DNA of 21,737 nucleotides from a virus. This document shows, in pieces, positions 765-21,737 of this stretch. The notes beneath the pieces were generated by a model, which did not search any database, was not told the origin of the DNA, and worked only from the letters and a program-made list of their open reading frames with translations. Both the position numbers and the translations under genes were made by a program. Where the stretch lies: the IMG/VR virus record IMGVR_UViG_3300042104_000105, positions 1 to 21,737 of that record. One strand, written 5' to 3'. Each line of letters begins with the position of its first letter. Within the stretch, counting starts at the first letter, position 1.

Positions 765-1261
765 TGCTACCAGTTATCCACAAACAACAGGACGAGTACT
801 GGCAGTTTACACCAGATTTCTTTGATGCCTTACAGAAAGCTTCAAATGATCATTTTTTATTCAGTATAATTAATAGACATGATAATACTGATGATTATAC
901 CTTCAGAAAAGAAGTTACTAAACGTATTTTACGTAATAAGGAATTTTACAAAACGTTTCCATTTAGAAAAGGAAACAGCCACGAACTTGGGATAGAACTT
1001 TACAGTGATAACTTAGGTAATTTTGTTATACCTTCAGAATACGTAGTTTACGTACCAGCTATCGATGCGACTGTGGACTTTTCTACTTGCCAGGATTATT
1101 TCATCTATAAGGCAAGTGACGCTCATACCGGCACGACAGTAGTTAACGCAGCACTGAAAGAGGGATATAAACTTATTAACATTCACGGATCAATACTTAT
1201 CGAAATGGCTAAAACTAATCCATATTTTAGCACAAACCAACCTACAAAGGAAATATTATGA
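764..1261 (+). CDS. hypothetical phage protein (165 aa)
   Basis: Unrecognised soluble protein of mixed composition with no membrane segment and no obvious motif. Its start overlaps the previous stop (TAATG) and is preceded by GGAGGAATC. Its own stop overlaps the next ATG (ATGA at 1258-1261). It is therefore the middle cistron of a translationally coupled trio. The tight coupling suggests a shared process or complex with its neighbours, but the sequence gives no function. Confidence 0.85.
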   Translation: MLPVIHKQQDEYWQFTPDFFDALQKASNDHFLFSIINRHDNTDDYTFRKEVTKRILRNKEFYKTFPFRKGNSHELGIELYSDNLGNFVIPSEYVVYVPAIDATVDFSTCQDYFIYKASDAHTGTTVVNAALKEGYKLINIHGSILIEMAKTNPYFSTNQPTKEIL

Positions 1262-3252
1262 ATTTTAAACAATTCGCACAATTAGTGCACAACCAATTCA
1301 ACCATATGGCGAATAACTACCCACTATTCAGAATGAATATCGATAGAGACGAAATTAAAGAACATTACCTTAATGCGTTCCCGGAAGGAACTAATCCTAC
1401 CTACATCACTAACACTAAGCATGATTGTTCATGTTGTAAGAACTTTATCAGAAACGTAGGTAATTTAGTAGCAGTAAAAGATGGTAACTTTATTTCAGTA
1501 TGGGATATAATTGTTGATGATGAGTACCAAGCTGTAGCAGATAGTATGTCAGCTTACGTAAAAACTAAACCTATTCACTCAGTATTTTATGCTTCTGAGA
1601 AGAAATACGGAGCATATGAATCTAAACAAACCTTACCTGACGGTTCAGTTATTAACTGGAATCATTTCCACTGTGAGATGCCTTCTAGCCTGTTTAAAGG
1701 CCCTAGTGTCGGAGAAATTACTGGACAAGCAACTACTTCAGCAACTATGTTAACTACAGCTATTGAATCGTTTAAACTATCCGCACTTAATGATGTTATT
1801 GAACTTATTGAATCTAATTCTCTGTACAGAGGGGACGAGCATCTTAAGGCTGTTAAACAGTTCAAAGATTTATTTAACAAATCACTGTCGTACTCTGGTA
1901 CAAAGAGACTCTTCGGATTTGAAAATTATAATAACCCAGCAGCTAGGTTCAAGAACACAGTTATTGGTACATTAGTTGAGGACCTATCTAATGGAGTCGA
2001 CTTAGTATCTGCAGTTAAGTCTTTTGAAGCTAAAGTAGCTCCTCAGAACTATAAACGTAGTAAATCTCTTATTACACAGGGTATGATTAATAAAGCAATG
2101 GAAACTATCACTGAACTTGACCTTGAGCCTTCTTTAGCTAGAAGACATGCAACTATTCATGATGTTAATGTAAATGACGTATTATTCTCTGATACTGCAG
2201 TTCAATCTCTAATGAAAGGTGGTGTAGCAGATCTGCTTAAACAAGAAGTAAAAGTTAAGAAACCAACTACTGATAATGCTCAGGATATCTCAATTGAAGA
2301 TTTCTTAGCACATCAATTACCTAATGCACAATCTATAGAAGCTTTAGTTGATAACAAACACCAATCCAACTTTATGAATATTATAGCACCTATTAATGAG
2401 TCTAAGCACTTACTTAAATGGGATAACAATTTTACATGGTCTTATAATGGTAACGTTACTGACTCTATGAAGCAACTAGTGCAGTCATTTGGGGGTAAAG
2501 TAGACGGAGCAACTAGGTGTTCTATTATGTGGAATGAAGATAACGATAATCCAGATGATCTTGACTTATACTGTAAATCACCATACGGTCATATCAAATA
2601 CTCAAATAAAGGTAATGCAGCATTTAACCTTGATGTTGATATTACTAGCCCGGGTAGTAAAGTGGCAGTAGAGAACATTGTTCATGCTCACGGTAAAGTA
2701 AAACAAGGTATATATGAATACGCTGTAAATAACTTTTCAGCTAGAGGAGCCACATCAGGTTTCAAAGCAGAAATTGAGTTTAACGGAGAAGTATTTGAAT
2801 ACAGTTACCATAAACCACTTAGTGACAAGGAAAACGTTAGGATAGCGACATTAGTTGTGGATTCTTCTGGAAATATAACTATTACACACCACTTAACCCA
2901 TTCTCAGTCATCTAAAACTATTTATGGTGTTAAAACTCAGCAGTTTGTTAAAGTAAATAATATTATGTTATCCCCTAACCATTGGCAAGATAACTCTACC
3001 GGTAATAAGCATTATATGTTTATACTAGATGGTTGTAAGACTACTGATCAAGTTAGAGGATTCTATAACGAATTCTTAGCCGCTAATCTTAATGAACACC
3101 GTAAAGTATTCGAAGTATTAGCATCTAAAATGAAAGTAGAAGCAGCGAATGAACAATTAGCTGGACTAGGCTTCAGCTCTACAGTGAATAACGAGGTAGT
3201 ACTTAAAGTGACTAACCCTAATTCAACAAAACTATATAACGTACAATTTTAG
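1258..3252 (+). CDS. large hypothetical protein with Cys cluster and possible DUF2135-like domain
   Basis: The 664-aa protein is the longest in the window. A Cys cluster (C57-S-C59-C60, followed by KNFIRNVGN) could bind a metal. The middle (about 150-390) is helical and charged. From about residue 420, a stretch with WNEDNDNPDDLDLYCKSPYG resembles the Asp-rich start of DUF2135/YfaP-like beta-sandwich domains, in which a TWN-x-DVDLHV pattern precedes a Gly/Tyr-rich sheet; this similarity is by eye only. There is no signal peptide. It overlaps the upstream gene by 4 nt (ATGA) and ends 16 nt before the tRNA cluster. It could be a phage-particle or host-takeover protein; this is undecided. Confidence 0.85.
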   Translation: MNFKQFAQLVHNQFNHMANNYPLFRMNIDRDEIKEHYLNAFPEGTNPTYITNTKHDCSCCKNFIRNVGNLVAVKDGNFISVWDIIVDDEYQAVADSMSAYVKTKPIHSVFYASEKKYGAYESKQTLPDGSVINWNHFHCEMPSSLFKGPSVGEITGQATTSATMLTTAIESFKLSALNDVIELIESNSLYRGDEHLKAVKQFKDLFNKSLSYSGTKRLFGFENYNNPAARFKNTVIGTLVEDLSNGVDLVSAVKSFEAKVAPQNYKRSKSLITQGMINKAMETITELDLEPSLARRHATIHDVNVNDVLFSDTAVQSLMKGGVADLLKQEVKVKKPTTDNAQDISIEDFLAHQLPNAQSIEALVDNKHQSNFMNIIAPINESKHLLKWDNNFTWSYNGNVTDSMKQLVQSFGGKVDGATRCSIMWNEDNDNPDDLDLYCKSPYGHIKYSNKGNAAFNLDVDITSPGSKVAVENIVHAHGKVKQGIYEYAVNNFSARGATSGFKAEIEFNGEVFEYSYHKPLSDKENVRIATLVVDSSGNITITHHLTHSQSSKTIYGVKTQQFVKVNNIMLSPNHWQDNSTGNKHYMFILDGCKTTDQVRGFYNEFLAANLNEHRKVFEVLASKMKVEAANEQLAGLGFSSTVNNEVVLKVTNPNSTKLYNVQF

Positions 3253-3268
3253 TACGTTATATACCCAT

Positions 3269-3417
3269 TACTCGGTAGCTCAGTGGTAGAGCGTCATCCA
3301 AAATCTGTAGCTCAACTGGTTAGAGCACTAGCTTAGTCTAGGGGTTCTAGGTTCAAATCCTAGCAGATTTACCATTACACGATGAAGGCCGTAGGTTCAA
3401 TCCCTACTCGAGTAACC
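3269..3417 (+). tRNA. split tRNA gene, tRNA-Val(UAC)-like, with another tRNA gene inside its anticodon loop
   Basis: Outer tRNA of the nested pair. The acceptor is 3269-3275 TACTCGG with 3408-3414 TCGAGTA (7 bp, one G-U). The D arm is GCTC/GAGC (3278-3281/3289-3292), the anticodon stem TCATC/GATGA (3294-3298/3381-3385), the variable loop 3386-3390, and the T arm GTAGG-TTCAATC-CCTAC (3391-3407). The discriminator is A3415, followed by CC. The anticodon loop is interrupted by a complete tRNA cloverleaf. Removing 3300-3374 leaves the 7-nt loop CTTACAC, which has U33 and anticodon UAC (Val), a plausible phage tRNA because GTA codons are frequent in the neighbouring genes. All outer stems pair without loss, so it looks maintained. 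Whether the halves are spliced is unknown. Confidence 0.75.
3301..3374 (+). tRNA. inner tRNA gene nested in the outer tRNA's anticodon loop; anticodon arm shortened
   Basis: Contiguous 74-nt cloverleaf. The acceptor is AAATCTG/CAGATTT (3301-3307/3364-3370, perfect), the D stem GCTC/GAGC (3310-3313/3323-3326), the T arm CTAGG-TTCAAAT-CCTAG (3347-3363), discriminator A3371, and an encoded CCA (3372-3374). The anticodon arm is odd: only 14 nt lie where 17 are usual, best drawn as a 4-bp CTAG/CTAG stem (3328-3331/3338-3341) with the 6-nt loop CTTAGT. The anticodon therefore cannot be assigned (a UAG-like triplet is present but lacks a normal loop). It may be a decayed tRNA, a tRNA with a non-standard loop, or an intron-like element released by RNase P and 3' processing. 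Confidence 0.72.
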
Positions 3418-3420
3418 TAT

Positions 3421-3504
3421 TACCGTATAGCTCAGTCGGTAGAGCGCTTGCCTTAAAATGCAAACAAGCAAGATGTCTCAGGTTCGATTCCTGATATGGT
3501 AACC
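3421..3504 (+). tRNA. tRNA with 16-nt anticodon loop; tRNA-Val(UAC) or tRNA-Leu(UAA)-like
   Basis: The acceptor is TACCGTA/TATGGTA (3421-3427/3495-3501, one G-U), the D stem GCTC/GAGC (3430-3433/3442-3445), the anticodon stem CTTGC/GCAAG (3447-3451/3468-3472, perfect), the variable loop 3473-3477, the T arm TCAGG-TTCGATT-CCTGA (3478-3494), discriminator A3502 and CC. The anticodon loop (3452-3467) is 16 nt instead of 7. Dropping 3455-3463 gives CTTACAA, the usual Val(UAC) loop; keeping the first seven nt gives CTTAAAA (Leu UAA). The class I variable loop argues against a normal Leu tRNA. It begins 3 nt after the CC of the nested pair, so the cluster is probably one transcript. Confidence 0.7.
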
Positions 3505-3545
3505 TTATGGCCAAATTGGCAACCACAAATAACAAAGGAAATAAT

Positions 3546-3914
3546 ATGAATTTATTCAAAGAAGCAACAAAACACAATTGGACATTCCAATCAACTAAAG
3601 GTGTACTTAACGTACAACAGCTATGGCAATTAACTCCAGCACAACTAAATGATATTGCTATGGAGCTTCATTCGCAGTTTAAGCAGTCAAAAAAGAAATC
3701 CTTTCTAGACACAACTGAACCAGATACATTAGCTGAACTACAACTTAATTTAGTTGTAGATATTATTAAAACTAAACAAGACGATAAATTAGCAATTCAG
3801 TCAGCTAAAGCAAATACTTCACATAACGATATGATAGATGATCTTATTGAAAAGAAGAAAAATGCACAATTAGCTGAAATGTCTATTAAAGACTTACAAG
3901 CGATGAAAAAGTAG
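3546..3914 (+). CDS. hypothetical small helical protein (122 aa)
   Basis: I place the start at ATG 3546, after an AAAGGAA Shine-Dalgarno, rather than at the in-frame ATG 3507. The earlier ATG lies only 2 nt past the third tRNA's CC and has no ribosome site of its own. The protein is polar and Lys/Gln-rich with no membrane segment; the C-terminal third (DDLIEKKKNAQLAEMSIKDL) looks like an amphipathic helix or coiled coil. It is the first gene after the tRNA cluster and may share its transcript. Not recognised. Confidence 0.75.
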   Translation: MNLFKEATKHNWTFQSTKGVLNVQQLWQLTPAQLNDIAMELHSQFKQSKKKSFLDTTEPDTLAELQLNLVVDIIKTKQDDKLAIQSAKANTSHNDMIDDLIEKKKNAQLAEMSIKDLQAMKK

Positions 3915-5616: not shown

Positions 5617-5727
5617 TGTATAGGTAGACGAAGTATAGAGCCTATACAATAGCAGAAACAGACTGTCAAATCGACTAAATCCTGAACAGTTCACATAGTA
5701 GAGCCAGATGACTTAGTCGTGAAGTCT
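5617..5727 (+). ncRNA. candidate structured non-coding RNA A
   Basis: This gene-free stretch holds three sets of pairings. TGTATAGG/CCTATACA (5617-5624/5641-5648) forms an 8-bp hairpin. AGACT/AGTCT (5660-5664/5723-5727) encloses CGACTAA/TTAGTCG (5672-5678/5713-5719). The heptamer TAGAGCC occurs at 5636 and 5699 and recurs in the other non-coding regions of this window. No ORF or poly-T terminator is present. It may be a small RNA or the 5' part of a longer one; no known family is recognised. Confidence 0.45.
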
Positions 5728-5757
5728 TTAAATTTATACACAAATTATTTTTATATG

Positions 5758-5788
5758 TTAACAGTAAGGGAAATTTTATCAGTATAAT
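5758..5788 (+). promoter_or_regulatory. possible sigma70-type promoter
   Basis: A TATAAT box (5783-5788) lies 19 nt downstream of TTAACA (5758-5763), which differs from the -35 consensus at one base. The spacing is 2 nt longer than ideal and there is no TG extension. It would fire into structured RNA B (from about 5827) and then the small gene at 6030. Chance TATAAT matches are common in DNA this AT-rich. Confidence 0.35.
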
Positions 5789-5826
5789 GCGAACACGCAA
5801 ATCTACACTACTATTTATTATTAATT

Positions 5827-5986
5827 AAGAGCATCAACAATATCCATATAGGGAAACCTTGCTGGTGATATGACATACTAACGCGTAGGACGTATGTAAA
5901 TGGTCTTTGACCTTCATTGTTGGAAAACTACGACATAATCGACTATACGAATGCATGTAGTATAGTCGGATCCTTTAGGTGCTTTT
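5827..5986 (+). ncRNA. candidate multibranched structured RNA B (about 160 nt)
   Basis: An outer helix AAGAGCA/TGCTTTT (5827-5833/5980-5986, one G-U) closes a set of nested and side helices: CAACAAT/ATTGTTG (5835-5841/5916-5922), CATAC/GTATG (5874-5878/5892-5896), GGTC/GACC (5902-5905/5909-5912) and a 9-bp hairpin CGACTATAC/GTATAGTCG (5940-5948/5960-5968). All are mutually compatible, giving a junction with a closing stem, as in a folded RNA or long leader. A possible promoter lies upstream at 5758-5788. No family is recognised and there is no classic terminator. Confidence 0.5.
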
Positions 5987-6029
5987 AGTTAATAGTAATA
6001 AATGAAGATTAAAATACAAAGGAAATATA

Positions 6030-6484: not shown

Positions 6485-7037
6485 CCAGGTGTGGTCACCT
6501 TGACCCTAATAACTAGACCTAGCTCCTGAGTATGAGCCTAAAAGACTTCTATATAATTTATACCCTTTGGTCGAGGGCTGACCCTAAAGATTGCTCAAGA
6601 CTTGGTCTGCTTGAGTATTTAGATTAGCTAACAGCTATACATCAACTGTACCTAGGAACGTGCCGAAACAAGCAGACATCCTAGGCTAAGTCACAGTAGA
6701 GCCCAAAAGACATTGATCCGTCAAGTACACGTTATACAGCAGTTATAGAGTCTCCCAAACGTCGACCTCTGGAAGAGATGCTCACGGTGTATAGTTGTTA
6801 GGTGATCTAACTGATCTGCATGAAACGCTAGTGAAAGCACAGGTGTAGAGTTATTGGATATTCACTTATCTCGAATACGTAGCCTACGAACAAACGGGTA
6901 GTGATCAGACGGCAGACGCACTACATAATCAATAGTACGAGGCAGGAGTTTACTTCTAACCTCTTCCTATTGTGTTTATCAGATTGATAGCCGTAAGCTA
7001 TTGCCGATGGTAAGGGAATTCGGGATATAAAAGAATC

Positions 7038-7067
7038 CTGGTGTGTGCACCAGTTATAGTGCACACA
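7038..7067 (+). other. mutually exclusive hairpins just before the fourth tRNA-like element
   Basis: CTGGTG/CACCAG (7038-7043/7048-7053) and TGTGTGCAC/GTGCACACA (7042-7050/7059-7067, 9 bp) share bases and cannot form together. The second ends 5 nt before the tRNA-like acceptor stem. It could guide 5' processing or be a conformational switch in the large RNA. Confidence 0.45.
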
Positions 7068-7072
7068 TACGA

Positions 7073-7180
7073 GAACCTTTAGGCTCAATTGGTAGAGCAG
7101 GCGAGGGGCCGGGATCGTTACCCGTATTATGGATGGTCCACCCTGCACGGTTTCAGGTTCGAATCCTGAAAGGTTCACCA
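7073..7180 (+). tRNA. tRNA-like element with interrupted anticodon arm, CCA encoded
   Basis: The acceptor is GAACCTT/AAGGTTC (7073-7079/7171-7176 plus A7170, perfect), the T arm TCAGG-TTCGAAT-CCTGA (7153-7169), the discriminator A7177 and CCA 7178-7180. The D arm is GCTC/GAGC (7083-7086/7095-7098) with a GG-containing loop, but three nt rather than two separate acceptor and D stem. Between D and T stems there are 54 nt where about 22-23 are usual, so roughly 31 nt are extra. They are GC-rich and fold as GGGCC/GGTCC (7106-7110/7135-7139) with GGG/CCC inside; AGG/CCT (7099-7101/7142-7144) may be the remaining anticodon stem. No anticodon can be assigned. It could be an intron-bearing tRNA, a pseudogene, or a tRNA mimic inside the large RNA. 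Confidence 0.6.
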
Positions 7181-7529
7181 CTTAAGAGCCACACTATAAG
7201 TATAAAATCGTGGAGTTTGCTGGCTTAAAGCAATGTTTCACTGTGTGTTTAGACAACTATCATAATTCGGTGGGTATTGTTGTACTTGTCGTATCGAAGG
7301 TAGGCTATGATGCAAGGCCTAGAAGTGTTAGTGATTGCCGTAACAACAATTATGGCTCAGTTGAAAATCAGCATAGTTTATTGTGTGACTGGCACATAAA
7401 CACTAAAAACAGTCTATAGATGGATCAGACAATATCGGAGCAATTCTGGTAGGAGTCTGATCTAGTGTGTAGATTTGATGCCGACACTGATGTCGGTCTC
7501 AAAAACAATTTATAACTAAAGGAGATTTG

Positions 7530-9972: not shown

Positions 9973-10497
9973 ATGCCACGCAAACATGGAGTCTTTCTTG
10001 GGCGTTTTCAGCCCTTTCACACCGGTCATCAATCTATCATTGATCACATTATCGCAGACGGGTTAGAGCCTGTAATATTAGCTGGATCAGCGCAAGAATC
10101 ATGCAATGTAAAGAACCCTTACTCGGTAGAGGATCGTACATCTATGATTAACCTTGTATATCCAAACATCAAAGTAATTTCTATAGAAGACAGAAACTGC
10201 TGGGATGAATGGTATTCATTACTGAAGTCAACACTACAAGAACAAATAAGTGAAGACTTGGACGAAATAACAATCTATCTGCACGAAAAGTTGGAAGACC
10301 TACAAAACTTCACTTTTAGGGGTGTAGATTATCTTGATGAGTCATATTGTAAGATGTACGAAATCGACGGCTTACACACAACTAGTTTACCTATATCTGA
10401 TATACCGATTAGAGCGAAGTTAATTAGAGAAGACCTAGAAGCTAACAAACACTATTTACACCCAAGTGTGTATAATTATATAAAGGATAACAAATGA
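9973..10497 (+). CDS. nadM: nicotinamide-nucleotide adenylyltransferase (NMNAT, NadM-like)
   Basis: It should catalyse NMN + ATP to NAD+ + PPi. The nucleotidyltransferase signature GRFQPFHTGH (residues 10-19) carries the H/TxGH ATP-binding motif, and ISDIPIR (about 141-147) corresponds to the ISxTxIR motif of the family. The 174-aa length equals stand-alone archaeal/phage NadM-type enzymes; there is no kinase or Nudix fusion as in NadR. It lies directly before and overlaps (ATGA) the nicotinamide phosphoribosyltransferase, so the two enzymes form a complete nicotinamide-to-NAD+ route. NadM versus the NadR-N subfamily is not certain. Confidence 0.9.
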   Translation: MPRKHGVFLGRFQPFHTGHQSIIDHIIADGLEPVILAGSAQESCNVKNPYSVEDRTSMINLVYPNIKVISIEDRNCWDEWYSLLKSTLQEQISEDLDEITIYLHEKLEDLQNFTFRGVDYLDESYCKMYEIDGLHTTSLPISDIPIRAKLIREDLEANKHYLHPSVYNYIKDNK

Positions 10498-11939
10498 AAA
10501 ACAACATCTTAAACCTAGCCGATAGCTACAAATACTCCCATGCTAACCAATACCCAGCTAATACAGTATCTATGTATGACTACATGGAATCTAGAGGTGG
10601 TGTATACCCAGCAACAGTATTTGTAGGACTTCAATACTATATTAAACAGTATTTAATGAGTATACCTACGCAAGAAGAAGTAGATAAAACTAGGGACAGG
10701 TGTCAAGCGCACGGTGTGCCATTTGATTATGACGGTTGGTCTTATATCGTGCAATTAGGTTACTTACCTATTAAGATCAAAGCAGTTGATGAGGGATCGC
10801 TAGTCCTAACTAAACATGTACTTATGACTATTGAATCTACAGACCCTAAAGTACCATGGATAGCAGGCTTTACTGAAACGATACTTATGAAATTATGGTA
10901 TCCAACTACGATAGCCACTAAATCTTACTATGCTAAACAAATGTTAGAAAAATACGGTTCACCTGAATGGGCACAATTTGCATATCACAATTTTGGAGAC
11001 AGAGGTTCTAGTTCTGTTGAAGCTGCAGCTATCGGCGGATTTGCACACTCTACACAATTTATGGGAACTGATAACTTCAACTCATTAGACTTCTGTGAAG
11101 AATTTTACGGAGCAGGCATCGCTGAGTCATATTCAGTATTTGCTACTGAGCACAGCTCAACTACTTCATATGGTAGAGATAATGAAGAACAATTTGTATA
11201 TGATCAATTATTAACTAACCCAGATGCGCCTATTATGTCATTCGTGGCAGATAGCTATGACGTATATGCATTCACTGAATTCTGTACCCATCCAGACTCT
11301 AGGATTAGAAAACTAATCGAATCTAGACCAAATCAGAAATTCGTCTTAAGACCTGATAGTGGTCATCCTATTAATGTCATCAAGCAAATGTTAGCTATAA
11401 TGGTCAACAATGATTGTTTTGATACAGATATAGAAGGCAAAGCACTTTCAACAAACTTTGGTATTTTATGGGGTGATGGTATTACACCGCACACTATAGA
11501 AACTATTCTTAAAACATTTACTACTTATGAAACAATTCCAGCACCAGATCAAACATCAACACAACCTTTTGCTGCTGAAAACTTTGTATTTGGCTCAGGT
11601 GGTGATTTAATGCAGAATGTTAATAGAGATACTCAAAAGTTTGCTATTAAATGTAGTTCTATTACTAGACGGTATGATGACCCAATCTGTAAAGATGGTC
11701 AATCAGGATACATTTATGAAGACATAGACGTCTACAAAGACCCAATCACGGACCATGGTAAAGCATCCAAGAAAGGTAAAGTAACTACTTGGTTCGATAC
11801 TGAAACTAAGGAATACATCGCTGGAATTGTTGGTAAGCAACCAAATATGCATTGCGTAGAGGCACTGAGTGTAGTGTTTGAGAATGGTAAACTGCTTAAA
11901 GAAACAACATTAGCTGAAATCAGAAACTGGGGTAACTAA
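10494..11939 (+). CDS. nadV: nicotinamide phosphoribosyltransferase (NAMPT)
   Basis: It converts nicotinamide + PRPP to NMN + PPi. The whole length matches the family: N-terminal ADSYKYSHANQYP (cf. DSYKxTHYKQYP), FGDRGSSSVEAAAIGG (about 166-181; cf. FGYRGVSS), ATEHSS, RPDSG (about 285-289, PRPP/nicotinamide site), WGDG, FGSGGDLMQ (about 366) and DPITDHGKASKKGK near 415. The 481 residues are close to the normal size, so it looks intact. It overlaps the NMNAT stop by 4 nt. With that enzyme it makes the two-step salvage known from phages as NARP2, which restores NAD+ after host NADase immunity. Confidence 0.93.
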   Translation: MKNNILNLADSYKYSHANQYPANTVSMYDYMESRGGVYPATVFVGLQYYIKQYLMSIPTQEEVDKTRDRCQAHGVPFDYDGWSYIVQLGYLPIKIKAVDEGSLVLTKHVLMTIESTDPKVPWIAGFTETILMKLWYPTTIATKSYYAKQMLEKYGSPEWAQFAYHNFGDRGSSSVEAAAIGGFAHSTQFMGTDNFNSLDFCEEFYGAGIAESYSVFATEHSSTTSYGRDNEEQFVYDQLLTNPDAPIMSFVADSYDVYAFTEFCTHPDSRIRKLIESRPNQKFVLRPDSGHPINVIKQMLAIMVNNDCFDTDIEGKALSTNFGILWGDGITPHTIETILKTFTTYETIPAPDQTSTQPFAAENFVFGSGGDLMQNVNRDTQKFAIKCSSITRRYDDPICKDGQSGYIYEDIDVYKDPITDHGKASKKGKVTTWFDTETKEYIAGIVGKQPNMHCVEALSVVFENGKLLKETTLAEIRNWGN

Positions 11940-12280
11940 TGCCAATATCTAAAGAATTATTAAGTGAAGTATTAGGCTGTAAACTTGATATTGACGAACA
12001 GCTTCAGCCTAATGAGATTGAATATATTGAAAAAGTAGGAAGTAGGCTATATTATAGGTATATCAACATCTACGAACTAGCTAACAAATGTAAAGAATGG
12101 GCTTATACTAAGAATTACTTTTTGTTTTCAGGGCATGGTGCAATATCCGCGTCATGTGAAGTAAATCATCGCACAGCTTCACCTGGTAAAATAAACCCAC
12201 AAGAAATAGTTTTAGCAGATACAGAATCAGAAGCAGTATTCGAAGCATGTCAATGGATATTAGAGAATAAGGAGAATTAA
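11939..12280 (+). CDS. hypothetical protein within the NAD+ operon (113 aa)
   Basis: Soluble protein of mixed composition with one His pair region (SGHGAISASCEVNHRT). It overlaps the NAMPT stop (TAATG) and ends directly before the Nudix gene, so all four genes are almost certainly co-translated. No family is recognised. The C-terminal DTESEAVFEACQWIL resembles the small helical end found in many phage orphan proteins. Its place inside the operon makes a role in NAD+ or nucleotide metabolism possible but not shown. Confidence 0.75.
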   Translation: MPISKELLSEVLGCKLDIDEQLQPNEIEYIEKVGSRLYYRYINIYELANKCKEWAYTKNYFLFSGHGAISASCEVNHRTASPGKINPQEIVLADTESEAVFEACQWILENKEN

Positions 12281-12883
12281 ATGAAACCAGTTTTCATACA
12301 CAAGCAAAAACCGTTAGTTGAACCTAAGTTCTTGACTAAAGACGCTCAGCTAGTTACTTACACTAGAGGTGACAAACTAGGCAAGCAGCACCAATGGGAA
12401 GTCGGGACAGGACATGACACTGTTCACATCTTAGTTAATAATATCGATCATAATGAATTATTACTAGTTAAGCAAATTCGTATTCCTGTTCTGATCAATC
12501 AATCAGACCACTCAGGAGAAGTAATTGAATGTTGTGCAGGCCTTGTAGACAAGTACAGTTCTTGTACAGATGACTACAGAATACCGAAAACGGCTATCGA
12601 AGAAATGCATGAGGAACTAGGTTACCTAGTACCAATTAAACGATTAGTGCCTATCACTACTACACTTAATGCTGTGGGTACCAAAGGTAGCAAATCACAC
12701 CATTTCTACTGTGAAGTAGCTGATACTGATTATATAGGTCAGAAACTATCACCTGATGAAGATATCGAAGCGTATTCACTTGACTACATTGACGTATTTC
12801 CATTCCTGAATGAAGTAACTAATACTGACAGTACAACTCGTATGCTGCTGCAGTGGTGGCTACTTAACAAAATCAAAGAATAG
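12281..12883 (+). CDS. Nudix hydrolase, ADP-ribose/nucleoside-diphosphate-sugar pyrophosphatase-like
   Basis: The 200-aa protein has the layout of the ADPR pyrophosphatase branch (NudF/NUDT5-14): an N-terminal beta region with a HILVNNIDHNELLLVKQIRIPV strand pair, CCAGLVDK, then a Nudix helix reading EEMHEELGY (about 107-115) preceded by a longer than usual insertion. The first Arg of REUxEExGU is Glu here; the metal-binding EE is kept. The expected reaction is ADP-ribose to AMP + ribose-5-phosphate. Beside NAMPT and NMNAT it could clear ADP-ribose made by host NADases and feed ribose phosphate back to PRPP. Substrate is inferred. Confidence 0.8.
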   Translation: MKPVFIHKQKPLVEPKFLTKDAQLVTYTRGDKLGKQHQWEVGTGHDTVHILVNNIDHNELLLVKQIRIPVLINQSDHSGEVIECCAGLVDKYSSCTDDYRIPKTAIEEMHEELGYLVPIKRLVPITTTLNAVGTKGSKSHHFYCEVADTDYIGQKLSPDEDIEAYSLDYIDVFPFLNEVTNTDSTTRMLLQWWLLNKIKE

Positions 12884-14966: not shown

Positions 14967-16162
14967 TGAACCCATTAATTACAACAGTACTAAAAACAAA
15001 TATCTCAGGTCAGCTTGCAGGAGCTGATATCGGTGGCGGAGTATGCCTAGTAGGACCTCCAGGAATCGGTAAAACACAATCTATGTACGCATTAGGTAAA
15101 GAACTTAATATGTCAGTTATTCATATCTCATTACCAGAGGCAACTATTGAATCCGCATCAGGGATTCCTACGTTCAAACCAGCGCCTAATATGGATAAGT
15201 ATTCTACTGCAGGTGTAACTGATTCTCAATCAACTCAATGGTCTGTACCTGAACTTATAGCTAACTGTAATAACGCAGCAGAAACTGGTAATGGGGCAAT
15301 TTTATTCCTTGACGATTTACATAAAATTCCTAAACCAGTTGAGCCTTACCTATATTCACTATTAGGTGAGCGTAAGCTAGGTAATTACAAATTATCGTCT
15401 AAAGTGGCCATCATGGGCGCAATGAATGATTCAGAAGAAGCAGGATTTGAAGGACTAGAAGCTCCTATCAAGAACAGGTTCTCTCTTATGAAGATTGATT
15501 TCGATTTCAATTACTGGTTTGATAATTTTGGTAACAGATTACATCACTATGTAGCATCGTACTTAAAAGCTAATCAAGGTGACATAGTTGGTACAGAATC
15601 TACTGACTTAGAACAATTTGAATCTCCTAGGTCTTGGACGTACTTAGCTAACGAAATCGGATTACACTCTACAGAGTTTGTAAACGATAACATAGAAATG
15701 TTAGCTAGGATGAAAATATCTAACGACGTATCTAAAAAGCTGTATGAACATGTTACTTATATCAATAAGATTGACTTCGATAACGTAGTTAAATCACAAG
15801 CTATGCAATCAATCTCACAGCTTAAGGAAACTGATAAAGTACTATGGGCTTATATAGTTAACTATATCCATACACCAACTGATGCGGCATATTTAATTGA
15901 TTTAATTAACCACAATAGTAACGATGTAACAGCTCAGAACTTTATCGGATACTTATCAGGGCAGATTTACATTAAATTTGTTATGTCATCTCAAGAGGGT
16001 ATAGCTATTACAGCAGGACAACAAATCCTAATAGAGAAATTCTTAGGTAATTACAATGAAGCTAATCACAAATTAACTAAGAAAGAGAAAGAGTTACTAG
16101 AAACTAAAGTATTAGCTAATCAGTCTAAATTACTGGACACAGTAAGTGACTATATACATTAA
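14966..16162 (+). CDS. MoxR-family AAA+ ATPase
   Basis: Walker A GPPGIGKT is at 30-37, Walker B ILFLDDLHK at about 112-120 (hhhhDD), sensor 1 in MGAMND and an Arg-finger-like NRFS follow about 60 residues later. The GAxLPEATIE/GIPTF stretch after Walker A is typical of phage MoxR proteins. At 398 residues it has an AAA+ core plus a helical C-terminal lid. MoxR ATPases form hexamers that remodel or insert cofactors into targets together with VWA proteins; the next gene encodes one. It overlaps the 369-aa gene by one base. Confidence 0.88.
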   Translation: MNPLITTVLKTNISGQLAGADIGGGVCLVGPPGIGKTQSMYALGKELNMSVIHISLPEATIESASGIPTFKPAPNMDKYSTAGVTDSQSTQWSVPELIANCNNAAETGNGAILFLDDLHKIPKPVEPYLYSLLGERKLGNYKLSSKVAIMGAMNDSEEAGFEGLEAPIKNRFSLMKIDFDFNYWFDNFGNRLHHYVASYLKANQGDIVGTESTDLEQFESPRSWTYLANEIGLHSTEFVNDNIEMLARMKISNDVSKKLYEHVTYINKIDFDNVVKSQAMQSISQLKETDKVLWAYIVNYIHTPTDAAYLIDLINHNSNDVTAQNFIGYLSGQIYIKFVMSSQEGIAITAGQQILIEKFLGNYNEANHKLTKKEKELLETKVLANQSKLLDTVSDYIH

Positions 16163-16165
16163 TTA

Positions 16166-16174
16166 TGGTATAAT
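16166..16174 (+). promoter_or_regulatory. possible extended -10 promoter
   Basis: TGGTATAAT is a full extended -10 element (TGnTATAAT) in the 35-nt gap before the VWA gene, where most neighbouring genes overlap instead. No convincing -35 is visible, which extended -10 promoters do not strictly need. It may give the VWA gene extra transcription. Confidence 0.4.
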
Positions 16175-16197
16175 ACCGTATAAATAAAGGATACACA

Positions 16198-17634
16198 ATG
16201 AAATACGAAAAATTTATTAAACAAGCCGAAGAGACAATCTTTAAAGACATTATGAAGAACATTAATATTCTTATGCAACAAGAGAAAACATCATTCCTAT
16301 CGACGGGTATGATACTTAAGTTAGGTGTAAATATTTCAGCAGTACAGGATGATAATACTACTGTCACTAAAACACTATCAATAGAAGACTTAGATAATCA
16401 ATTCATTTCATACATAAATCCAGATAACCCTTCAACAGTTGAGTTTAAGTTTGTGTATAAAGACGAAAAACACCTTAAGCACCTACTTAGAATCATAGAG
16501 AAGAAACCTTTACTGTTCTCATACCACTACCTAAGAAACATGCATAGCATTATACTTAAGCATGGTACACTAGCTCATACTCAGTCATTAGCTAGGGTTA
16601 TTGGCGATAAGCAAGATATCCATATGCTAGTAGAAATTGCTAACGACCAGGTAATAAGACAAAAAATGCGTGCTATACTAAATGTCTTAGCACCAGCTAC
16701 TAAGGCTATTAATGAACTTAATAGCCTTTACCCAGCGCCGTCATCAGACCTAAGTGCAGAAGATATTATCAAAGAAATAGCTTTTTCTGCTCCAACGCTG
16801 AAAGTGACTAGTATCAAGAAGTACTTAAAGAAAGTAAATATTAACGGTAAACATTATGTTATACCTGAAAAAGTATCTCACGGCTGTAACCCTGACCTCG
16901 GTGAATATGGGTATCAAACAGGCCTAGGCAAAGTTGACGCTTCTATTACATCATTAGCTGATCAATTACATAACGATATCTCATCTAACTGTAAGGGTAC
17001 TGGTGTAGGTGACCTATTTGCTGCTACATTTGACTCTGTTAAAGTAGACACATCATGGTTTAAGAAACTAGCTAAGTCTTTTCACAGAGTGGTTTATCAT
17101 AGAACTAATGAGCATGAGGCTACTTGGGCAGGTTTAAACAATACCTATAGGCATATCTATTCAGCACCTAAGCACAAGCACATAAAAAAGACTATTAAGC
17201 TAATCTTATCTATTGATAACTCTGGCTCAATGTCATATAGTGATTTACAGAAGTTATTAGGTCTATTTGAAAAACAGTCTAAAAGAATTAGCGAAATCAT
17301 TGTATTACCACATACTTCAGCTGTACTGAAAGAATTCACACTTCAAGCAGATGATAGTATTGCAGATGACCCGATGTTCAGAAAAGCAATCGGTACCAGA
17401 CACGGAAATGGCGGTACATCTCATTTGGATGTATTCAAGCACATAGCTAACCTAAAAGTAACTAATCCTACAGAATACCTATATATGTCGTTTTCTGATA
17501 ACTATTCAGATATTGAAGATACATTCTATAAGTACCCAATCATGGGTAAATTAACTTGCTACTGGGTATCACCATCCGATGGTAGACCGGTAGACACAAC
17601 TAAAGTACCAGGAACTAATGTAGTTATCCCTTAG
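16198..17634 (+). CDS. von Willebrand factor A (VWA) domain protein, MoxR partner
   Basis: 478 residues. The C-terminal half is a VWA domain: strand ILSID, MIDAS motif D340-N-S342-G-S344 (DxSxS), then NGGTSHLDVF supplying the MIDAS Thr and SFSDNYSD the distal Asp. The N-terminal 300 residues are helical with no recognised motif. With the adjacent MoxR ATPase it should form a MoxR/VWA chaperone pair similar in outline to CbbQ/CbbO, NorQ/NorD or CobS/CobT. In T4-size phages such pairs have no assigned target. It is preceded by AAAGGA and a possible promoter. Confidence 0.85.
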   Translation: MKYEKFIKQAEETIFKDIMKNINILMQQEKTSFLSTGMILKLGVNISAVQDDNTTVTKTLSIEDLDNQFISYINPDNPSTVEFKFVYKDEKHLKHLLRIIEKKPLLFSYHYLRNMHSIILKHGTLAHTQSLARVIGDKQDIHMLVEIANDQVIRQKMRAILNVLAPATKAINELNSLYPAPSSDLSAEDIIKEIAFSAPTLKVTSIKKYLKKVNINGKHYVIPEKVSHGCNPDLGEYGYQTGLGKVDASITSLADQLHNDISSNCKGTGVGDLFAATFDSVKVDTSWFKKLAKSFHRVVYHRTNEHEATWAGLNNTYRHIYSAPKHKHIKKTIKLILSIDNSGSMSYSDLQKLLGLFEKQSKRISEIIVLPHTSAVLKEFTLQADDSIADDPMFRKAIGTRHGNGGTSHLDVFKHIANLKVTNPTEYLYMSFSDNYSDIEDTFYKYPIMGKLTCYWVSPSDGRPVDTTKVPGTNVVIP

Positions 17635-20292: not shown

Positions 20293-21585
20293 ATGCTAAA
20301 CGAAAAACAACAACAAGTATACGACAGGGTCATTAAAGAACGGGCTCCTATAACTTACTTGACAGGTGAAGCCGGTACCGGTAAGTCATTCACAGTATCA
20401 CAAATTATTCATGATATACCTTCAATACTAACAGCATCTACACATAAAGCTAAATCAGTTTTATCACAAATGACGGGTAGACCTTCTCAGACTGTACATA
20501 AGTACTTTGGATTTCGTTTAACTAACATTAACTATAAACAGGTACTTGTTCAGAATGGTAATCACGATCTAAAGGAAACAAGACTTTTAGTTATTGATGA
20601 AGTATCTATGCTACCTGACAGAATACTCACTGCAGCTCTAGAAGCTTTAGGTGACTCATATGATCAACTACTATTTGTAGGAGATCCTATCCAGCTACCA
20701 GCAGTATCTAATAAACCTAAATTAGCTAAACTCGCCAAACATCAGATCAATTTGACTGAACAGATGAGACAACAACCGTGCGATAAGCTAGCTTCATATA
20801 TGGATACATACCGTACAGCAATAAAGGAAGGTAATTTACCTGAATTAGGTACAGAAGCTCCAGCTATTGAGTTAATCGATGACCACAAGGTATTTTGCCG
20901 TAAGTACGTAACCTGTGAGGGTAATAAGAAGATTATTGCTTATAGAAACAACGTGGTGGAGAAGTATAACGCTAATATCAATGACGGTGATACATTCAAT
21001 ATTGGAGACGCTGTAATACTGGATAAACCAATCGGTCAAATTGCACACAACCAGGATGTAGTAATAATAAACGACTTAGAGGAACTGGACGACTACTATT
21101 CTATACGAGTAGTAACCGATAATGGCAGCATGTCTTGGATTAGGCACTATAAGGCTTCTTCTAAGTTGACTAAACTGTTAGGTGAATTGCAACTAGAAGG
21201 TAACGAAAACGGTTACTGGGACTTATTTGATAAGTCATTTAGACTTAAACATGTGTACGCTTCAACTGTACATAAATCACAAGGCGAATCAATTGACTAC
21301 GTATTCTTAGATGCACTAGATATTGTAAATGCTTATGAAACACCTAAATCTAAGTATAACAACCCTATTAATCTTGATCTAATGTTGAGATTGTTATACG
21401 TCGGTATCAGTCGAATGAAGATTAAATGTTACATATACACTGGTGATGACGACAGGGGCAGGTGGTATAATATTTTACAAGAATCAGCTGAACAGGCAGA
21501 ACGTAATCTTAAGCGAAAGAAACCAATTAAGAATCAGGAATTATCGCAAGAGGATAATATACCACAACCAAAATTTATCATATGA
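20293..21585 (+). CDS. dda: Dda-like SF1B DNA helicase (5'-3')
   Basis: 430 residues, close to T4 Dda (439). SF1 motifs in order: Q-motif-like NEKQQQVYD; Walker A GEAGTGKS (about 25-32); motif Ia ILTASTHKAK; Walker B VIDEVS (about 99-104); motif III FVGDPIQLPAV; motif IV LTEQMRQ; motif V ASTVHKSQGESIDYVF; and motif VI YVGISRMK. It should unwind DNA 5'-3' during replication initiation or recombination and clear bound proteins. The start follows AAGGAAC. It is not adjacent to other replication genes in this window. Confidence 0.9.
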   Translation: MLNEKQQQVYDRVIKERAPITYLTGEAGTGKSFTVSQIIHDIPSILTASTHKAKSVLSQMTGRPSQTVHKYFGFRLTNINYKQVLVQNGNHDLKETRLLVIDEVSMLPDRILTAALEALGDSYDQLLFVGDPIQLPAVSNKPKLAKLAKHQINLTEQMRQQPCDKLASYMDTYRTAIKEGNLPELGTEAPAIELIDDHKVFCRKYVTCEGNKKIIAYRNNVVEKYNANINDGDTFNIGDAVILDKPIGQIAHNQDVVIINDLEELDDYYSIRVVTDNGSMSWIRHYKASSKLTKLLGELQLEGNENGYWDLFDKSFRLKHVYASTVHKSQGESIDYVFLDALDIVNAYETPKSKYNNPINLDLMLRLLYVGISRMKIKCYIYTGDDDRGRWYNILQESAEQAERNLKRKKPIKNQELSQEDNIPQPKFII

Positions 21586-21596
21586 GGAAATAAACG

Positions 21597-21737
21597 ATGA
21601 GAGAGATTAAGTTTAGATATTACTTTAACGTAGATTTACCAAACCGTAAAACATTTCACAGAGATGCTACCCTGAATCAGATAGAAGACAGAAAAGCTTT
21701 TAATGGTGTAGTGGGTTGGGGTAATTGTAAATATAAA
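21597..21737 (+). CDS. hypothetical protein, cut by the window end
   Basis: It opens with ATG 21597 after GAGGAAAT and remains open for 47 codons to the window edge. The N-terminus MREIKFRYYF resembles the opening MREIKFR of YopX-like phage proteins, but the rest (NVDLPNRKTFHRDATLNQIEDRKAF) does not clearly continue that pattern. Too little is present to classify. Confidence 0.6.
   Translation, partial: MREIKFRYYFNVDLPNRKTFHRDATLNQIEDRKAFNGVVGWGNCKYK

Follow-up and report, generated by a model that had tools for sequence, protein, structure and literature searches.

Organization of the nested tRNA locus

The window, i.e., the whole analyzed stretch of 21,737 nucleotides of viral DNA (IMG/VR record IMGVR_UViG_3300042104_000105), carries a block of tRNA-like sequences located between genes of the phrog_1735 and phrog_2018 families. 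Within this block, one tRNA-shaped element resides in the anticodon loop of another. The relevant features are as follows.

1258..3252, plus strand: upstream gene, phrog_1735 family (family match)
3269..3299, plus strand: 5' half of the outer, tRNA-Val-like tRNA with acceptor, D-arm, anticodon stem TCATC and C32 (read from the sequence and found with the interrupted-cloverleaf detector)
3300..3300, plus strand: base A directly 5' of the insert, which extends the residual loop from 7 to 8 nt (sequence and excision)
3301..3374, plus strand: inner tRNA-shaped insert with encoded CCA and a shortened anticodon arm, CTAG CTTAGT CTAG, at 3328-3341 (Rfam tRNA, 56.2 bits; ARAGORN tRNA-???)
3375..3415, plus strand: 3' half of the outer tRNA with TTACAC, GATGA, variable loop AGGCC, T-arm, acceptor and A73 (sequence, detector and excision)
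3421..3502, plus strand: third tRNA body with a 16-nt anticodon loop (CTTAAAATGCAAACAA) that contains 9 extra bases (Rfam, 61.9 bits; ARAGORN tRNA-???; alignment with the tRNA-Thr of pf16)
3543..3914, plus strand: downstream gene, phrog_2018 family (family match)
7073..7180, plus strand: fourth tRNA body, GAACCTT/AAGGTTC, with D-arm, T-arm and ACCA (relaxed cloverleaf scan; detector score 25.5)

As read from the sequence, the outer tRNA has an acceptor stem of six Watson-Crick pairs and one G-U pair (TACTCGG/TCGAGTA, 3269-3275/3408-3414), a D-stem GCTC/GAGC, an anticodon stem formed by TCATC (3294-3298) and GATGA (3381-3385), a T-arm GTAGG TTCAATC CCTAC and A73 at position 3415. This bears out the statement of an earlier note on this DNA that the outer stems pair perfectly or with a single G-U. 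The same note had drawn both elements as cloverleaves, which holds for the outer stems and, in the inner tRNA, for the acceptor AAATCTG/CAGATTT, the stem GCTC/GAGC, the T-arm CTAGG TTCAAAT CCTAG, A73 and the encoded CCA, but not for the inner anticodon arm. With 4 bp and a 6-nt loop, this arm comprises 14 nt compared with the normal 17, and ARAGORN detects the inner tRNA without a readable anticodon.

An ordinary tRNA gene is a continuous cloverleaf with a 5-bp anticodon stem and a 7-nt loop, while the outer tRNA is interrupted by about 75 nt. When the whole window was searched on both strands with a detector for cloverleaves with inserts, the outer tRNA scored 30.0, as compared with a maximum of 25.0 in 60 dinucleotide shuffles. 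Upon excision of the insert, the outer tRNA folds into a cloverleaf (-20.3 kcal/mol). Its body is closest to tRNA-Val, with a 5-fold enrichment of Val in the top 20 among 3233 phage and MAG tRNAs. The nest is present in identical form on a 52,878-base contig of the same virus (G001) that is 99.9% identical to the window (20 mismatches). The nesting as originally noticed is thus confirmed, in that the anticodon loop of an intact outer cloverleaf holds a CCA-bearing tRNA insert. All 20 mismatches separating the two contigs fall within the 1-kb chunks 16001-17000 and 21001-21737 and represent a close strain difference.

It had further been claimed that removal of the inner element restores a 7-nt loop with the anticodon UAC. 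This is correct for excision of 3300-3374, after which ARAGORN reports tRNA-Val(tac). It does not apply to the mature ends of the inner tRNA, because removal of exactly 3301-3374 leaves an 8-nt loop, in which CA is joined to TTACAC, and ARAGORN then reports Asn(att). A 7-nt loop is only obtained after a shift by one base. Rfam recognizes the 74-nt insert of the window as a tRNA, and no group I ribozyme core was found in it. An exact-match search with the outer 5' half recovered only the same virus, and the tRNA block of the window matched named phages solely in parts of ordinary tRNAs. Several named relatives have no tRNAs at this position, and their two flanking genes are directly adjacent.

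tRNA-shaped inserts in other phages

A tRNA residing in the anticodon loop of another tRNA places two T-arms unusually close to each other. IMG/VR and GTDB contigs were therefore scanned for close T-arm spacing, and a further scan was run for the matching D-arm spacing. Candidates were screened with a detector free of any fixed residual loop length, by excision followed by ARAGORN and by reading of the aligned hits. This yielded at least 22 CCA-bearing inserts in intact outer tRNAs, including that of the window, from IMG/VR and one MAG contig. When the cut was placed at the first acceptor base of the insert and after its CCA, the residual loop had exactly 7 nt, U33 and a purine at position 37 for 19 of the 22 CCA-bearing inserts among the matches listed. 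The outer tRNAs of these 19 precise cases read Ile(UAU), Lys(UUU), Gln(UUG), Glu(UUC), Leu(UAA) and Pro(UGG); the inserts are 44-91 nt long and split the loop between positions 34 and 35, 35 and 36 or 36 and 37. Among the matches listed, the CCA-bearing exceptions are the window, L275 and L052 with residual loops of 8, 9 and 10 nt, respectively. Note that the list was assembled by hand and contains kin (the Glu group, L435/L546 and L129/L560), such that it corresponds to about fifteen independent cases; L411, which lacks CCA, and the ambiguous L178 were left out. Two further inserts have no encoded CCA: that in L134 (Asn) leaves 7 nt, and that in L098 (Arg) does so only if the insert ends with ACCC.

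Two contigs, L550 and L602, have a complete tRNA-Asn(GUU) nested in a tRNA-Lys. The interrupted anticodon had no second copy within the carrier loci examined. The Rfam tRNA model, which is independent of our detector, spans the insert and joins both outer halves in L129, L104, L558, L218, L486 and L378. In 13 carrier loci, Rfam matched no group I intron. Shifting the excision boundaries did not lower the ARAGORN counts, and our argument therefore rests on the length of the residual loop and not on ARAGORN. A blastn search of INPHARED returned no named phage matching the interrupted tRNAs. Likewise, a wider T-arm spacing scan for insertions into the D-loop gave no convincing D-loop nest on excision among the candidates tried.

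Two tRNA-shaped inserts are found on contigs binned as bacterial, both of which could be phage: a 71-nt insert in tRNA-Ile(UAU) in a Kiritimatiellae MAG (L378) and an insert of about 120 nt in tRNA-Gln in a Mollicutes MAG (L411). A second insert type of about 80-90 nt occurs in L152 (2224-2378, 3871-4021 and 5005-5157), L174 (2701-2863, reverse strand) and L042 (6371-6532). It consists of a 5' hairpin, often with an AGTAAA loop, an A-rich linker and a minihelix with one unpaired base, and it has no CCA. An RNA ligase gene lies within or beside the tRNA cluster in G010, the contig of L152; G011, the contig of L174, encodes RtcB. Anticodon-loop inserts of 22-66 nt belonging to neither type are present in L121, L117, L205, L153 and L162 (around 9712).

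Covariation in the minihelix group

At least ten sequences share an insert of only 44-45 nt that is composed of a 7-bp acceptor, a linker of 9-10 nt with a conserved GG, a T-arm with the T-loop TTCAACT, and NCCA. In the alignment of this minihelix, 94.5% of the cells pair, and both sides have changed in 24 of the 33 pairs. The covariation amounts to 0.772, compared with 0.250 in shuffled alignments and at most 0.226 when the partners are slid against each other. The outer anticodon stems also covary across the insert, as exemplified by CTGGA/TCCAG versus CTAGA/TCTAG in tRNA-Lys, with the restriction that the columns mix isotypes and general tRNA structure accounts for part of the outer signal. 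In this group, the predicted fold of the insert and the predicted fold of the outer tRNA both covary.

Association with RNA ligase genes

An RNA ligase is encoded on eight of the nine contigs of at least 80 kb that carry precise inserts, as opposed to 12 of 40 large controls taken from these scans (one-sided Fisher p 0.0019; controls unmatched for completeness, and the carriers G018 and G019 are related). The carrier ligases belong to phrog_968 or, in G018 and G019, match PF09414 above the cut-off. Among the weak PF09414 hits, those of about 400-490 amino acids in G005, G014, G017 and G020 match phrog_968, RNA ligase, whereas those of about 380 amino acids in G014, G015, G020 and G006 were rejected, as these are DNA ligases. 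In G022, G018, G019, G005 and G017, no more than about 5 kb separates the ligase gene from the interrupted tRNA. The ninth large carrier, G007, in which no RNA ligase was found, contains the CCA-less L134 insert. The T4 Rnl1 family (PF09511) was not matched in any contig, and since this includes the controls, the result is uninformative.

No match to PF09511, PF01139, phrog_968 or phrog_548 was obtained on the 52.9-kb contig of the window virus, which is probably only part of the genome. A PF09414 hit on this contig (45387-46475) was rejected as an RNA ligase because it belongs to phrog_114 and its closest PDB chain, 6imj, is a DNA ligase. RNA ligases of large phages are usually explained by the repair of cleaved tRNAs (PMC7824862), and the association reported here is therefore no proof of splicing. 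Phages with tRNA-associated theta ribozymes show an enrichment of an RNA ligase as well (PMC10879173).

A possible end-processing and ligation pathway

The exact residual loop, the covariation and the ligase association can be integrated into one model. As judged from the sequence, the outer and the inner fold could both form in the primary transcript, one inside the other. The insert would then be matured like a pre-tRNA, with RNase P generating its 5' end and a 3' nuclease, RNase Z/BN or a different one, cutting after the encoded CCA. RNase P leaves a 3'-OH on the upstream fragment, RNase Z-type cleavage leaves a 5'-phosphate on the downstream fragment, and Rnl-type ligases join such ends. 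The products would be a 5' half with a 3'-OH and a 3' half with a 5'-phosphate, kept together by pairing of the acceptor and anticodon stems, and a 5'-3' RNA ligase could seal them into a full tRNA. For the class as a whole, excision by tRNA end-processing followed by ligation offers the simplest reading of the three lines of evidence, and we consider it probable.

The earlier note had put forward the same idea for the window itself, i.e., an inner tRNA acting as an intron that is released by RNase P and 3'-end processing and leaves two halves for a ligase. Support for it comes from elsewhere, namely from the 19 precise inserts, the covariation and the ligase enrichment, whereas the window retains 8 nt, the partial contig yielded no RNA ligase and the anticodon loops of the other tRNAs are abnormal. 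The window would represent an imprecise version, with 8 nt left unless RNase P cuts one base upstream, and its outer product may be a tRNA with a shifted loop, or the halves may be joined with low efficiency, if at all. An interrupted tRNA-Val-like gene with a tRNA-shaped insert, processed by the same pathway with a one-base cleavage shift, is a reading that we hold at not quite even confidence. It ranks below the reading for the class because 8 nt are left over, the inner arm is defective and no RNA ligase hit was obtained on the partial contig.

Alternative explanations

In principle, the nest in the window can be explained in fundamentally different ways. It could have arisen recently and neutrally by recombination in a fluid phage tRNA array, in which case the inner tRNA alone would be or have been used and the outer halves would be a relic that has not yet decayed. 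The imprecise nests agree with such an origin in several respects: the residual loops of the window, L052, L275 and L015 are not clean 7-nt loops with U33 (excision of the inner tRNA of L015 produces loops with C33 only), the outer T-stem of L275 is degenerate, the inner tRNAs of L052, L275 and L015 are normal tRNA-Ile by their anticodon, and no RNA ligase was found on any of the four contigs (window G001, L052, L275 and L015), some of which are partial. The window itself shows the reverse of what would be expected, since its outer stems are intact and it is the inner anticodon arm that is damaged. Furthermore, L015 is a distant relative with 33% identity in the phrog_1735 protein, and a different nested tRNA pair is also situated 3' of its phrog_1735 gene. 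The presence of a nest at the same gene junction argues for persistence, and we regard neutral nesting as unlikely.

The remaining tRNA bodies of the virus bear on two further explanations. The third body (3421-3502) has the tRNA-Thr of phage pf16 as its closest named match; its nine extra loop bases (CTTAAAATGCAAACAA) possibly stem from a GCAA duplication. In the fourth body (7073-7180), which was detected neither by ARAGORN nor by Rfam, D-arm and T-arm are set apart by about 30 extra bases. Taken together, the anticodon region is abnormal in each of the four tRNA bodies of the contig (a 75-nt insert, a 14-nt arm, a 16-nt loop and about 30 extra bases), and the disturbance is limited to this region, with acceptor, D- and T-arms intact in each case. 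This pattern would suit non-decoding tRNA bodies with altered anticodon loops that serve to decoy tRNA-cutting defences or to signal RNase P processing, so that decoding by the outer tRNA would be irrelevant. Changes in the anticodon loop of phage tRNAs have been proposed to provide an escape from tRNA-targeting defences (PMC10264068). However, decoys for anticodon nucleases are expected to keep a recognizable anticodon loop, and the exact 7-nt rule in the other carriers is left unexplained; we thus rate this explanation as rather improbable. It is very doubtful that the window simply harbors four decaying tRNA pseudogenes with the nest as a passive by-product. None of the four bodies has a normal anticodon loop and ARAGORN assigns no isotype, as decay would predict, yet decay should affect all arms, and all other stems pair, with the outer score exceeding every shuffle. 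An assembly artefact or chimera, conceivable for a metagenome contig, has a negligible probability because G001 matches the window exactly over the nest and many other contigs contain comparable nests.

Relation to known introns and RNA repair

Returning to excision by end-processing and ligation, the inserts found across phages suggest an as yet undescribed kind of tRNA intron. To our knowledge, a tRNA intron either is itself a ribozyme or is removed through a dedicated splicing endonuclease. Group I introns such as those in Anabaena tRNA-Leu and Azoarcus tRNA-Ile likewise sit in the anticodon loop, and their removal would restore a 7-nt loop. The precise phage inserts, in contrast, are 44-91 nt long and tRNA-shaped with CCA, and the carrier loci searched contain no group I match. 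Archaeal and eukaryotic introns cut by endonucleases resemble the proposed pathway in its outcome, cleavage and ligation of two tRNA halves, but the boundaries in the phages coincide with the mature 5' end and the CCA end of the embedded tRNA or minihelix, and the ends would be 3'-OH and 5'-phosphate. Split and permuted tRNA genes and the intervening sequences of bacterial rRNA also give rise to functional RNA from pieces with the help of end-processing nucleases, whereas the phage case involves two co-linear, nested tRNA-like genes.

Theta ribozymes at the 3' ends of phage tRNAs are another instance of phage-specific tRNA maturation, and genomes containing them are enriched in an RNA ligase of the DRB0094 family (PMC10879173). 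However, they flank the tRNA at its 3' end, while the inserts described here interrupt the anticodon loop. Phage RNA repair by T4 Pnkp/Rnl1-type enzymes and jumbo-phage RNA ligases seals tRNAs broken in the anticodon loop (PMC7824862). In the proposed pathway, the break would originate from end-processing of an encoded insert and not from a host anticodon nuclease.

According to one review, the significant structural variation known from bacterial tRNA genes is limited to group I and II introns (PMC4033280), and phage introns observed up to 2014 reside in protein-coding genes (PMC3984707). We found no description of nested tRNA genes, phage tRNA introns or RNase P acting with introns in the PMC literature; subscription journals and preprints lie mostly outside of it, and a description could exist there. 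Within this scope, the earlier assertion that no phage splicing system of this kind has been described stands.

The embedded element resembles a substrate of RNase P and of the 3'-end nucleases that bacteria already possess, and splicing would need only a ligase, which the carrier phages tend to encode. We tentatively propose, with less assurance than for excision and ligation in the class, a further kind of phage tRNA intron that consists of a tRNA or a 44-45-nt minihelix with CCA and is excised by end-processing and sealed by a phage ligase. One nested transcript could then yield two tRNAs, e.g., Lys enclosing Asn, and the window would be a one-base-shifted member. If correct, this would assign phage RNA ligases a role beyond repair and would explain why some tRNAs are overlooked by annotation programs. 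Such a mechanism can be put to a direct test both in vitro and in E. coli.

Further observations in the window

Two regions of the window, 5617-6029 and 6485-7515, are long, have no convincing open reading frames and appear to be rich in short hairpins. Neither gave an Rfam match, and they may contain structured RNAs of new kinds. The region 9973-12883 encompasses NAD salvage genes, namely a nucleotidyltransferase-like open reading frame (GRFQPFHTGH), a nicotinamide phosphoribosyltransferase (phrog_448) and a Nudix-like open reading frame.
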